Assembly: GCF_001403875.1 (NCBI RefSeq)
Contig: NZ_LN884299.1
Location: 3,262,547-3,326,546 of the forward strand
Length of the DNA stretch: 64,000 nt
Direction: 5' to 3'
Source: Paenibacillus ihumii
GTDB lineage: Bacteria; Bacillota; Bacilli; Paenibacillales; Paenibacillaceae
The stretch's first letter is position 1, and every line of letters starts with the position of its first letter. Of this stretch, positions 33,024-37,002 are shown piece after piece. Both the position numbers and the translations under genes were made by a program. The notes beneath the pieces were generated by a model. That model saw only the letters and a list, made by a program, of their open reading frames with translations. It did not search any database and was not told the origin of the DNA.

Positions 33024-33959
33024 CTATATATGATAAATGAGTCCGCCCTGCTGATCGATGTCATAAGGCGTTTCTTGATACACATAGTAGTTCAGCCAAT
33101 TGGAGAATAATAAGTTAGCATGAGATTTCCAAGTTGATTTCGGCGTACGGGAAGGATCGTCATTCGGGTAATAATTAACAGGCAGATCGATATCGAGTCC
33201 CTTCGCAACATCGCGGTCATATTCCCATTTTAGCGAACATGGATCGTACTCGGAATGGCCAGTCACGAAAATTTGCTTGCCGTCCTTCGTTGCGACAAGA
33301 TAAATGCCCGCTTCTTCGGATTCGGCCAGAATATCGAGCTCGGGCACCTTCTCGATGTCGCGGCGCTCCACATCCGTATGACGGGAATGGGGCACCTGGA
33401 ATACTTCATCAAAGCCCCGCAGCAGCTTGACGTTAGGAATATTTACGGTGTGCGGGAACACACCGAAGCATTTCTTCGGAAGGTGAATCTTTCTGACCCC
33501 ATAATGGTAATACAATCCGGCCTGGGATGCCCAACAAATATGCAGGGTTGAAGTGACGTTCGTTTTGCTCCACTCAAAGATCCCCTTCAACTCTTCCCAA
33601 TAGTTCACTTCCTCGAACTCCAGCTGCTCGACCGGCGCCCCCGTAATAATGAGTCCGTCGAAACGGCGCGACTTGATTTCGTCGAATGTCTTGTAGAACA
33701 TTTCGAGATGCTCCGCCGACGTGTTCTTGGACTTATGCGAACGAGGATGGAGCAGGACGATTTCTACCTGGAGCGGCGTATTCCCGAGCAGACGCAATAT
33801 TTGCGTCTCGGTCGTCTCCTTCGTAGGCATCAGATTCAGAATCGCGATCCGCAGCGGACGGATATCCTGGCGGTAAGCCCGCGATTCATCCATCACGAAT
33901 ATATTCTCGTTCTCCAGTACTTCTTTTGCCGGCAAGTGATCAGGAACCTTAATTGGCAT
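33024..33959 (-). CDS. metA: Homoserine O-acetyltransferase (MetA family)
   Basis: The 311-residue protein is a MetA-fold homoserine transacylase. Cys in [16 protein letters not shown] is the acyl acceptor, and His in [10 protein letters not shown] with the downstream Glu completes the triad. Residue 111, which sets acyl-donor choice, is Glu ([16 protein letters not shown]). Family work links Glu111 to acetyl-CoA and Gly111 to succinyl-CoA, so acetylation is predicted. It is the first gene behind the SAM-I riboswitch, 20 bases ahead of metI. Confidence 0.92.
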
Positions 33960-34069: not shown

Positions 34070-34222
34070 CTTCATCTGTAACATGAATGCGCCTCTCTCA
34101 TCTCTCAGATACCGAAGGACGCCTCCGTCCAACGGTTCTGCAAGAATTAGCACCGTACGATTGAAAATCGCCGGTTGCCGGGTATCATCGGGCCAGTCCC
34201 TCCACCTGCTCTTGATAAGATT
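34069..34222 (-). promoter_or_regulatory. SAM-I (S-box) riboswitch
   Basis: The minus strand shows CTTATCAAGAGCAGGTGGAG (start near 34218), GGACTGGCCCGATGATACCC and GGCAACC, then GGTGCTAATTCTTGC and TCTGAGAGATGAGAG. These are the conserved core, in order, of the S-box aptamer. The P1 closing arm is near 34069-34076. Binding of S-adenosylmethionine should close the terminator and shut the met operon. Confidence 0.97.
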
Positions 34223-34374: not shown

Positions 34375-34403
34375 TTGATCATGTCAAATGTGAGGGTTAT
34401 ACT
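34375..34403 (+). promoter_or_regulatory. Sigma-A promoter of corA
   Basis: TTGATC (34375-34380), 17 bases and TATACT (34398-34403) give a transcript starting near 34410 with a leader of about 260 bases before corA. Confidence 0.7.
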
Positions 34404-34451
34404 AGACAAGTGTTAATAAGCTTATTCAGGCAAAAAAGAGGTGAAATGATT

Positions 34452-34574
34452 ATGGAAGGCGACCCGAGTCCGCAGAGAACTGCCCCACAACAACAATGGC
34501 ATAGGAAATCGATCAGCAGAGCGCTCACGGATGATTTGGGGCTCTTTCGTTTTCGTTTCCCGGTGTTTGTATAA
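34452..34574 (+). CDS. Small ORF in the corA leader, 40 residues (candidate leader peptide)
   Basis: An ATG at 34452 lies eight bases after GAGGTG (34438-34443) and encodes 40 residues beginning MEGDPSPQRTAPQQQWHRK and ending LFRFRFPVFV. It sits wholly inside the long corA leader. The stop codon runs into an AACGCC/GGCGTT hairpin at 34573-34590, with a TTTTT run 15 bases beyond. Proline-rich leader peptides control Mg2+ transporter genes in enteric bacteria (mgtL, corL), so a similar role is possible here. No homologue is recognised; coding status is not proven. Confidence 0.45.
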   Translation: MEGDPSPQRTAPQQQWHRKSISRALTDDLGLFRFRFPVFV

Positions 34575-34670
34575 ACGCCTGTTCCGGCGTTACCGGCTGC
34601 TGATCCTTTTTCCTATGCTCAACCTAGAGCATTATATCCGACAGGATTGGGGAAAAGGAGAGTGACACCC

Positions 34671-35606
34671 TTGAAAATTCGTCATGTTAAAGACGGCGTA
34701 TTTACAACGGTAGATGACGTGGAAGCAACGACTACAGCACCGGAGGAAGGCTTTTATTGGATCGATGCGGACGGTGAGGATCTCAGAATTCTGCAGCCGC
34801 TGTTCTCCCTGCATGATCTGGCCGTGGAGGATTGCTTGACGGAAGAGGAGCAGCGTCCGAAGATCGAAACGTATGACAACCATTATTTCATTGTTGTCAA
34901 CAGCATCCGCTTCGACGACGAGGAGATTTTTCTGCGGGCCCTGAATATTTTTCTCGGCCGGCATTATATCATCACCGTGACGAAGCAGAAGATCAATGAG
35001 CTGCGCGCCGTCAAACCGATATTGTGGGAGCAGGAAGTCAGCGAGCCCGACCGGTTCCTGTACCTGCTTATCGACCTCGTTGTAGACAACTATTTTACAG
35101 TCAGCGACCGGATCGAAGTGAAGATCGAGAAGCTGGAAGAGGACATCCTTATGCATACGAAGCGCTCTCACCTGAGCGAAATTATCGGTCTGCGAAGCGA
35201 AATATTATGGCTGAAAAAGATGCTTGGTCCGCAAAAGGAAGTTATCAATATTTTAAATAAAAAGGATTTGCGCCTGATCGATGATCAGCTTCAAAAATAT
35301 TTCAGCGACATTTACGAGAACGCCGTAAAAATCTCCGAGAACTTCGAGACGTTCCGGGAGCTGATGGGCAACTTGCGAGAGGCCTACCAGTCCTCGATCG
35401 CCAACAGGGCAAACGAGATTATGCGCGTGTTCACCGCCATCACGACCATCTTCATTCCTCTGACCCTGATAACCGGGATATACGGAATGAACTTCGACAA
35501 CATGCCCGAGCTGCATTGGAAATATTCTTATTATGTGGTGATCGGGATCATGGTCGTCCTTGGTGCCGGGATGTACTACCTGTTCCGTAAGCGGGACTGG
35601 ATTTGA
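34671..35606 (+). CDS. corA: CorA-type magnesium transporter
   Basis: The 311-residue protein has a large cytoplasmic N-terminal domain and two C-terminal transmembrane helices. The signature YGMNF lies after the first helix (ITTIFIPLTLITGIYGMNFDNMPEL), and the protein ends in a basic tail (RKRDWI). CorA forms pentamers that let Mg2+ (also Co2+ or Ni2+) in, gated by Mg2+ bound to the cytoplasmic domain. A TTG at 34671 is preferred since AAGGAG is ten bases upstream; an in-frame GTG at 34662 touches that site. It is a single gene with a promoter, a long leader and a terminator. Confidence 0.93.
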   Translation: MKIRHVKDGVFTTVDDVEATTTAPEEGFYWIDADGEDLRILQPLFSLHDLAVEDCLTEEEQRPKIETYDNHYFIVVNSIRFDDEEIFLRALNIFLGRHYIITVTKQKINELRAVKPILWEQEVSEPDRFLYLLIDLVVDNYFTVSDRIEVKIEKLEEDILMHTKRSHLSEIIGLRSEILWLKKMLGPQKEVINILNKKDLRLIDDQLQKYFSDIYENAVKISENFETFRELMGNLREAYQSSIANRANEIMRVFTAITTIFIPLTLITGIYGMNFDNMPELHWKYSYYVVIGIMVVLGAGMYYLFRKRDWI

Positions 35607-35667: not shown

Positions 35668-36843
35668 TCAGGCTAAAAACTGCCGCTGATTTCGGTTCAT
35701 CCTCCAAAATGCCAATAGCCACGGCTCCTGCTTCATGAACAGATCAATCCGGCTAACCCGCATCGCGTACCGTGCTTCTGCCCCTGCGGTAACGAATTCG
35801 TATAAGGCGCAGGCGCTCATACAGCAATTCCCGATCCTCGGCTTCCGCCGCTTCCAGGCCATACACCCTCTGCGGTAACGAATTCGTATAAGGCGCAGGC
35901 GCTCATACAGCAATTCCCGATCCTCGGCTTCCGCCGCTTCCAGGCCATACACCCTCTGCAGCACCGGTTTGAGAAATGCATCCCCAAGCTCCTCATAGGC
36001 CTGCATAACGGCAGCCTGCTCTTCCTCCGGCATGGCCTGCAGCTCGTTCTTTACCAGCTGTTCCGTACTGTAACCGTCCTTCTCCAGCTCTTCGAGCATT
36101 TCAATCAAATCCCGGCGGCCCACAGCAACACGTTCTCGAATCTGTTCTACATCAAGCCCCTCGGCAATGCCTTCAAGCAGTTTGCGGCGTACGCTGTATC
36201 TCTCTGCTTCCACCCGCAGCTTCGCCTCCTTCTGCTTATACAGCCAGCACCGGAGCGTCTCCTGATCCACTGCTGCATCCACCCAATCCAGCGGGAATGA
36301 GGTCTTACGGTCGTGCTTCCGGGTGATCGCAAGCAGCTCGTCCCCGTAATCCGCCGCTTTATTCTGCCCTACCCCTGGAAGCAGCAGCAATTCTTCCACC
36401 GTATGCGGCAGAAATACGCTGATCAGCCGGAGGAGCCGATTGCTCGCAATGAGATACGCCGCCTTGCGCTCTGCCGCGGCTTTCTTCCTCCGCCAATTGC
36501 TCAGCTCGGTGTAGAGCGGCTCATTCTCGTTGCTCTCGCTATAACAGATCAGCTTCTGAGCGGTCATCGATTTGCCGCGGAGCTGCTCCTTATCCTCCCA
36601 AATTCCCTCGACCGTAGGCTGGAAGCCTTCCCCCAGCTTAATGACCAGACGATGGCGATAGACATGGAGCATCTCTGACCAGGAAGAGCCTTCATACCAT
36701 ATGTCCTCCTGCTCTCCGTCCGCTGTAGCCTCGTTCCAGCCCATGCGCCACAAGCTTTCTTCCTCTCCCATCCAGACCTGCGCGCTGCCGACAACCGCCC
36801 CGCCTTCCCGTTTCTCCAGACTGTTCAAAAATATGATCCTCAA
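35668..36843 (-). CDS. HRDC-domain protein with C-terminus altered by tandem duplication
   Basis: The protein of about 391 residues begins MRIIFLNSLEKREGG. It contains an HRDC helical domain (LYTELSNWRRKKAAAERKAAYLIASNRLLRLISVFLPHTVEELLLLPGVGQNKAADYGDELLAI as several segments near residues 155-220), a fold that aids nucleic-acid binding in RecQ helicases and RNase D. A helix-turn-helix-like segment (LDVEQIRERVAVGRRDLIEMLEEL) follows. No helicase or nuclease domain is seen. An 86-bp duplication near the 3' end (35784-35959) shifts the frame, replacing a short basic ending (RYRRGRSTVRDAG then stop) with about 68 other residues. The TTG at 36843 follows AGGAGGGGG by six bases. Confidence 0.7.
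   Translation of the reverse strand: MRIIFLNSLEKREGGAVVGSAQVWMGEEESLWRMGWNEATADGEQEDIWYEGSSWSEMLHVYRHRLVIKLGEGFQPTVEGIWEDKEQLRGKSMTAQKLICYSESNENEPLYTELSNWRRKKAAAERKAAYLIASNRLLRLISVFLPHTVEELLLLPGVGQNKAADYGDELLAITRKHDRKTSFPLDWVDAAVDQETLRCWLYKQKEAKLRVEAERYSVRRKLLEGIAEGLDVEQIRERVAVGRRDLIEMLEELEKDGYSTEQLVKNELQAMPEEEQAAVMQAYEELGDAFLKPVLQRVYGLEAAEAEDRELLYERLRLIRIRYRRGCMAWKRRKPRIGNCCMSACALYEFVTAGAEARYAMRVSRIDLFMKQEPWLLAFWRMNRNQRQFLA
35784..35959. repeat. 86-bp perfect tandem duplication
   Basis: Positions 35784-35873 and 35870-35959 are identical over 90 bases, giving a period of 86 with a four-base CTGC overlap at the joint. 86 is not a multiple of three, so the copy lying downstream on the minus strand is read in a second frame. 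Either recent slippage or an assembly error would explain it. Confidence 0.95.
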
Positions 36844-36913
36844 AGGATCCCCCTCCTTCATTATTCTCAGTAAATGAACGGCACTTCTAAGCTCATATTC
36901 CCGTGAACGCAAA

Positions 36914-36948
36914 AAGCACCCCTTCTGCAAAATACAGAAGAGGTGCTT
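36914..36948 (-). terminator. Leader terminator upstream of the HRDC gene
   Basis: AAGCACCCCTTCTG pairs with CAGAAGAGGTGCTT (one mismatch) and is followed on the minus strand by TTTTTGCG. It lies about 20 bases after the promoter start point and about 70 bases before the HRDC start codon, so it would attenuate that gene. Confidence 0.65.
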
Positions 36949-36974
36949 CCTCCATTCATATACTGTTATAACTA

Positions 36975-37002
36975 ATAATACCATTTTATATTTCGCTGTC
37001 AA
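36975..37002 (-). promoter_or_regulatory. Strong sigma-A promoter of the HRDC gene leader
   Basis: On the minus strand TTGACA (37002-36997), 16 bases and TATTAT (36980-36975) are close to consensus. A terminator hairpin follows within 30 bases of the -10 box. Confidence 0.7.

Follow-up and report, generated by a model that had tools for sequence, protein, structure and literature searches.

The corA gene of Paenibacillus ihumii is preceded by a leader RNA that carries a small upstream open reading frame (uORF), and this arrangement is confirmed as a real feature. As judged from related sequences, residues 2 and 4 of the uORF product are acidic and the leader has a covarying RNA helix (helix A). 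We consider it rather probable that ribosomes operate the leader as a translational attenuator: when Mg2+ is low they would fail at the acidic start, and corA would be turned on. Since the acidic start is found in nearly all sampled relatives, the ribosome itself may report the shortage of Mg2+, much as in enteric bacteria. A preliminary description of this DNA had already suspected the plan of a Mg2+-responsive leader peptide ahead of corA, a suspicion strengthened here by the conservation of the acidic/proline start of the ORF and by the covariation of the switch helix. The window is the whole stretch of DNA analysed, 64,000 nucleotides in length.

Anatomy of the corA leader

The features of the leader are as follows.

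34375–34403, plus strand: sigma-A type promoter-like site, TTGATC-17-TATACT (promoter scan; TATACTA in relatives)
34410–34670, plus strand: corA leader RNA (5' end inferred from the promoter; matched by DNA search in all 36 genomes of the genus)
34438–34443, plus strand: Shine-Dalgarno sequence GAGGTG of the uORF
34452–34574, plus strand: 40-codon uORF, beginning M-E-G-D-P
34452–34471, plus strand: strand 1, the uORF start, which can pair with about 34533–34550 in helix C (folding; nearly invariant)
34499–34519, plus strand: strand 2, the ORF-internal half of helix A
34533–34550, plus strand: C3, the stretch that strand 1 can pair with in helix C (folding)
34574–34591, plus strand: AACGCC/GGCGTT hairpin, opened by the last base of the uORF stop codon (covaries in the genus)
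34597–34618, plus strand: strand 3, with two alternative partners: strand 2 in helix A (ON) and, by prediction, the corA Shine-Dalgarno sequence in helix B (OFF)
34649–34660, plus strand: strand 4, GGGGAAAAGGAG, the corA Shine-Dalgarno sequence
34671–35606, plus strand: corA, 311 aa, GMN motif, TTG start, Mg2+/Co2+ transporter family

The promoter, the Shine-Dalgarno sequence and the 40-residue ORF lie where the preliminary description had put them, and its estimate of a leader of some 260 bases agrees with the ~260 nt found here (34410–34670). The promoter scan by itself is at chance level (5 sites, against 2.8 in shuffles, sd 1.8); TATACTA recurs no more than 150 nt 5' of the uORF in all 36 first loci and in 104 of 119 overall. 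The uORF runs from an ATG at 34452 to a TAA stop at 34572–34574, and its 40-aa product, MEGDPSPQRTAPQQQWHRKSISRALTDDLGLFRFRFPVFV, contains four prolines, in keeping with the proline content that had been remarked on earlier. The in-frame stretch 34410–34571 has no match in Pfam or NCBIfam, which gives no sign of a known protein in the uORF. The corA product matches TIGR00383 (256.8 bits, cut-off 200.75) as well as PF01544, and the GMN motif is present. When the whole leader is folded, z is −1.65, a value equalled or bettered by 13 of 200 shuffles; for the segment 34490–34630 alone z is −3.18, equalled or bettered by 2 of 200. Further copies of the leader in this genome were sought with one pattern only, GGTG-N5-14-ATGGANGGNGA, with which a diverged copy could be missed; it occurs in four places, the corA leader and L137, L138 and L140, which lie inside longer ORFs.

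The surroundings of the leader hold two other features. A SAM riboswitch (RF00162, 76.6 bits, 34095–34221, minus strand), divergent to the corA leader, lies ahead of metA (33024–33959, minus strand; best NCBIfam match homoserine O-acetyltransferase MetA). By eye, L220 has a sequence like this riboswitch 5' of its corA, and the arrangement may therefore be a conserved one. On the other side, an 86-base unit is perfectly duplicated in tandem (35784–35959) within a minus-strand ORF (35668–37002) that has a RecQ C-terminal-like stretch; as the unit is not a multiple of three, the duplication shifts the reading frame of this ORF, and it may have arisen recently or reflect an error of assembly.

Conservation of the acidic uORF start

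A DNA search with the leader gave matches in 36 of 59 genomes, namely in all 36 of the genus and in none of the 23 from other families, and in 89 of 295 in a family-wide draw. All 76 loci chosen through leader DNA start with ATG and read M[ED]GD, with a Shine-Dalgarno sequence 7–11 nt upstream (GAGGTG in 74, GGGGTG in 2), but as this set was picked by leader similarity it is no proof of presence. Another set was chosen through corA: 60 regions were hand-picked from the corA matches listed for their spread over genera and families, with the leaders unseen, 51 aimed at this corA orthologue and nine at paralogues. Four genomes of family f9 had no corA match among the matches listed. The orthologue, with a protein start like MK.R, was found in 44 of the 51 regions. 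When the rule asks for [DE]x[DE] directly after the start codon and for four or more matching bases in the Shine-Dalgarno sequence, the uORF is present in 43 of these 44 orthologues, from 10 families of the order, and the one orthologue outside the rule, L105, reads MDGNP. Pooled with the leader-DNA-chosen loci, 119 of 120 have the acidic start. The rule imposes the acidic residues at 2 and 4, yet it dropped one locus only, and it does not impose Gly3, which is nevertheless present in 41 of the 43 corA-chosen loci with all four Gly codons in use.

The codons of these 43 loci are mixed. Codon 2 is GAC in 24, GAA in 13 and GAT in 6; codon 3 is GGC in 21, GGA in 11, GGG in 7, GGT in 2 and another in 2; codon 4 is GAC in 30, GAT in 9, GAA in 3 and GAG in 1; and the start codon is ATG in 41, GTG in 1 and TTG in 1. 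Such mixing of codons and start codons, with the charge at 2 and 4 kept, points to a constraint on the peptide rather than on the RNA. It bears on the possibility of a direct metal-binding riboswitch, in which the ORF would be incidental and its conserved start part of an aptamer. The core ATGGAAGGCGACCCG is almost invariant in the 76 leader-DNA-chosen loci, wobble bases included, so that an RNA constraint may act there, and it can pair in helix C; in farther relatives, however, start codons and wobble positions vary and the amino-acid classes are kept, and a cmscan of the leader with Rfam 15 returned no cis-regulatory family and, up to an E-value of 10, one sub-threshold miRNA model only. We regard the riboswitch as very improbable.

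In a named collection, made up of the best 80 of at least 590 CorA-protein matches and overlapping partly in species with the other sets, 76 of these best 80 loci pass the uORF rule, or 77 if L244 is counted, whose MDVDRP start lies farther out than the scanned distance. The labels are mostly Paenibacillus, with Cohnella, Saccharibacillus, one Neobacillus, one Bacillus sp. and one Paenibacillaceae bacterium. The acidic pair is shifted but kept in two named loci (MGDDRP in L231, MDGADP in L239). In L220 (Paenibacillus alkaliterrae, 1061–1212) the promoter and GAGGTG are kept in a short leader before corA that has no such uORF or switch strands, possibly a natural constitutive control. As a control, the regions upstream of 25 other corA genes, paralogous or distant, were put to the same lenient rule; 3 of the 25 pass, by chance or otherwise (L097, L133, L135), none of them with Gly3, and the motif is found in 0 of 11 corA2 orthologues of family f32. 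The frame in L135 (g18), started by GTG 149 nt 5' of the corA paralogue with a 6-base Shine-Dalgarno match, reads MEPDHAEA.. and recalls the EPDP of MgtL; it could be chance inside another gene.

Beyond its start the uORF is less constant. Its length is 27–63 aa (median 38, 119 loci), its residues are variable from about position 9 onward, and in L076 a different frame is read after codon 15 with the DNA conserved. This frame change and the variable residues lead us to reject a function for the whole C-terminus of the peptide, apart from the constraint that helix A places on the bases.

Of the 76 leader-DNA-chosen loci, 71 have Pro at position 5; in the 43 corA-chosen loci this residue is Arg in 20, Pro in 19, His in 3 and Gly in 1. 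The same uORF switch might then respond to another signal, such as charged tRNA-Pro, EF-P or ABC-F activity, or translation inhibitors, for any slowing at strand 1 would have the same RNA outcome; the frequency of Pro5 in both sets would fit, and mgtL is acted upon by EF-P and its proline codons (excerpts of PMC6460261) and also by EttA (excerpts of PMC11282234). Yet Pro5 gives way to Arg in those 20 corA-chosen loci and Pro 7 is unfixed, whereas the acidic pair stays, and the gene under control is a member of a Mg2+ transporter family. We think another signal unlikely.

The uORF overlaps corA in none of the 119 loci, with a median stop-to-start gap of 88 nt, and this speaks against translational coupling alone, by which the uORF would be a constitutive feeder of ribosomes that hold the corA Shine-Dalgarno sequence unfolded, without any sensing. 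The strong Shine-Dalgarno sequence of the uORF would suit a feeder, as would the unrelated ORF that enters corA in several loci of family f32, but coupling would leave unexplained both the fixed acidic start and a helix that excludes the Shine-Dalgarno helix, and we find it quite improbable.

Five loci of family f32 (L141, L142, L147, L148 and L150) have in common another leader ORF (..PS.EALR.AYELIL..) with a strong Shine-Dalgarno sequence, 5' of the corA orthologue, which reads beyond the corA start codon in another frame; the sequences suggest that it is translationally coupled to corA. It starts also with acidic residues and proline (VDTP, MDKP, MKTSDPD).

Predicted alternative helices in the leader

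A larger inverted repeat, which the preliminary description did not have, joins 34499–34519 with 34597–34618 as helix A. The strands follow one another in the RNA in the order 1, 2, C3, 3, 4, so that helix C (1:C3) crosses helix A (2:3), helices A and B share strand 3, and the ON state would be A and the OFF state C plus B. In this predicted scheme strand 3 would alternatively cover the corA Shine-Dalgarno sequence (helix B), and the uORF start would be held in helix C, excluding A. The leader can thus be drawn with mutually exclusive helices, one of them overlapping the uORF, of which A covaries and B and C are predicted.

Helix A was assessed on alignment A2, which comprises 34 genus leaders (of 38 genus loci), is based on sequence only and was not fitted to the helix. 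Of 634 cells, 86.1% are paired, against 36–48% with the partner slid by 1–3 columns, a comparison that favours helix A in the share of paired cells since the structure came from the window sequence. There are 11 double-changed pairs against 5.2 in shuffles (0 of 500), and the outer 10 bp are 96.1% paired, six of them with compensatory change. More widely, 61 non-redundant loci were assembled, 59 of which entered a dinucleotide-shuffle test (two had too little sequence); helix A beats the shuffles at p ≤ 0.05 in 29 of the 59, with a median z of 2.3, as against 8 of 74 control windows with a median z of 0.24. It is weak in several short leaders from other families, and among the best duplexes listed for other families strands at similar positions pair with different letters (e.g. 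L107, L115, L119).

Comparative support for helix B is weaker: 78.2% of cells are paired on A2 and the covariation score lies above all shuffles, but the number of double-changed pairs (6) stays below that of the shuffles (6.9); it passes the shuffle test (p ≤ 0.05) in 9 of 59 loci. As the corA Shine-Dalgarno sequence is itself fixed, covariation in helix B is limited, and helix C is so nearly invariant that covariation is uninformative. When each locus's own duplex was ranked against swapped ones, the median rank for helix A was 0.175, with 31% of the 61 loci under 5%, followed by helix C with 20%, helix B with 7% and the control 1:3 with 3%; the control 2:4 reached 15%, which calls for caution, and the means of this test are distorted by a dummy energy from L074, where one region was empty. 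The preliminary description had proposed comparing the leader across Paenibacillus, and that comparison, with the start conserved and the switch helix covarying, brought no refutation.

The leaders of L030 and L032 have an additional small hairpin in the loop of helix B, between strands 3 and 4 (TATGTG..CACATA in L030, a variant in L032).

The hairpin at the uORF stop

The preliminary description had pointed to a hairpin followed by a T-run at the end of the uORF. The stop codon does enter the AACGCC/GGCGTT hairpin, its last base opening the stem (34574–34591), and in the genus this hairpin covaries, being 76.1% paired with 13 double-changed cells as against 4.2; the paired share of a competing hairpin, GGTGTTT/AAACGCC, is 83.8%, and covariation supports it less. 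A T-run also exists (34607–34611), but 15 bases separate it from the stem, and it makes no terminator tail. A GC-rich hairpin followed directly by a U-run, as in an intrinsic terminator, was not found. There is a weak 5-bp terminator-like site at 34585–34602, one of 3 such sites in the region where 2.2 are expected. The 15-base spacing and this chance-level scan lead us to reject the hairpin plus T-run as a terminator.

Transcription attenuation through this hairpin could draw on its covariation in the genus, on the nearness of the T-run and on the weak terminator-like site, but the distance between stem and T-run, the chance level of such sites and the place of the T-run within strand 3 make it hardly credible. 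Because the T-run lies in a strand able to mask the corA Shine-Dalgarno sequence, control is most likely exerted on translation, and the working switch is probably the covarying helix 34499–34519/34597–34618, not the stop-codon hairpin and T-run.

Accessibility of the corA Shine-Dalgarno sequence

The corA Shine-Dalgarno sequence is predicted to be hidden in the OFF structure, in the manner of mgtQ. By ensemble folding with strand 1 masked, its mean probability of being unpaired is 0.405 with strand 2 free and 0.249 with strand 2 masked; the mean is 0.338 when nothing is masked, and shuffling strand 2 gives 0.250. Of the 61 loci, 46 have a more accessible sequence with strand 2 free than with it masked (Wilcoxon p = 4e-7, taking loci as independent), among them 30 of the 37 in the window's family, and the effect is smaller outside this family (16 of 24 loci, p = 0.011). 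For the window the values are 0.44 with strand 2 free, 0.07 masked, 0.15 unmasked and 0.13 with strand 2 shuffled. With no strand masked, the window leader keeps this sequence mostly closed (0.15), so that corA would stay off if ribosomes dropped off completely and did not re-initiate; the model requires ribosomes that visit strand 1 repeatedly.

A model for ribosome-operated control of corA

With ample Mg2+, ribosomes would traverse the uORF and cover strand 2, helix B would form and corA would be off. In low Mg2+, 70S ribosomes may pause or drop off at the acidic-x-acidic start through intrinsic ribosome destabilisation; by occupying strand 1 repeatedly, the failing ribosomes would keep helix C open and strand 2 free, helix A could then form, the corA Shine-Dalgarno sequence would be released and CorA would be made. 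The low-Mg2+ induction of corA and the failure of ribosomes at the uORF start are inferred by analogy with enterobacterial leaders.

The M-box (RF00380) is a Mg2+-responsive leader of Mg2+ transporter genes. In standing before such a gene the corA leader resembles it, but the RF00380 model has no match in the leader, the window or this genome, which leads us to reject an M-box reading and bears out the preliminary description, to which the leader had looked unlike an M-box by eye. This genome has no M-box, though mgtE is present. The model finds an M-box in 2 of 21 relatives and, with stricter filters, in at least 14 of 119 genomes of the order, and the Bacillus subtilis and Lactococcus lactis controls are positive. 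This scarcity is circumstantial evidence. The corA leader may help to explain how Mg2+ uptake is controlled largely without a detectable M-box.

On the wider proposition we are evenly divided: that a Gram-positive order gauges Mg2+ for corA by how stable its ribosomes are while they make an acidic-x-acidic start peptide, independently of MgtL and MgtQ, by translational and not Rho-dependent control, with the M-box mostly undetected. Within the open-licence PubMed Central literature we found no Gram-positive leader of this kind, and there the sensing of Mg2+ by ribosome destabilisation has so far been enterobacterial. If true, the acidic-start uORF before corA, kept throughout the sampled families of a Gram-positive order, would turn this sensing into a more general, convergent principle, and a second type of ribosome would be available for testing why acidic residues after the start codon break translation.

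Comparison with known leaders

Among enteric leaders, that of corA in E. coli and Salmonella (corL) likewise has a uORF before corA and alternative RNA structures, but corL of E. coli starts with UUG, is poorer in acidic or proline residues, with one proline only, and acts with Rho (excerpts of PMC11552253). A corA motif is also on record from Gammaproteobacteria and metagenomic DNA, with 325 representatives (excerpts of PMC6429828).

MgtL is alike in its peptide. Both have acidic residues at 2 and 4 and Pro5 (EPDP there, EGDP here), both involve a uORF whose translation represses (here, would repress) a Mg2+ transporter gene, and the leaders are similar in length (264 nt for MgtL), but MgtL works through Rho-dependent termination, whereas here a hidden Shine-Dalgarno sequence is predicted and Gly3 stands for Pro3 (excerpts of PMC11282234 and PMC6460261). 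In MgtL the low-Mg2+ drop-off has been located to EPDP, and with Gln and Asn in place of Glu2 and Asp4 mgtA-reporter expression was undetectable (excerpts of PMC11282234); the mgtL prolines have been tied to EF-P (excerpts of PMC6460261).

The RNA plan resembles that of mgtQ, a uORF with acidic residues at 2 and 5 and alternative helices that act on translation of the Mg2+ transporter gene mgtB. There Asp2 and Glu5 lower translation of the uORF, and helix 2:3 replaces 1:2 plus 3:4, freeing the mgtB RBS from 3:4; in the excerpts of that paper its authors state that destabilisation itself is not demonstrated there (PMC8092293). The mgtQ uORF has 8 aa and lies in Salmonella between mgtC and mgtB in an operon (excerpts of PMC8092293), whereas here the uORF has 27–63 aa, stands at the 5' end ahead of corA in Gram-positive bacteria and contains strand 2. 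Only a short motif is common to the corA uORF and mgtL/mgtQ; the leader would work like both, descent is not claimed, and convergence is assumed. By analogy, then, the corA leader described here would combine the acidic positions of MgtL with the RNA plan of mgtQ.
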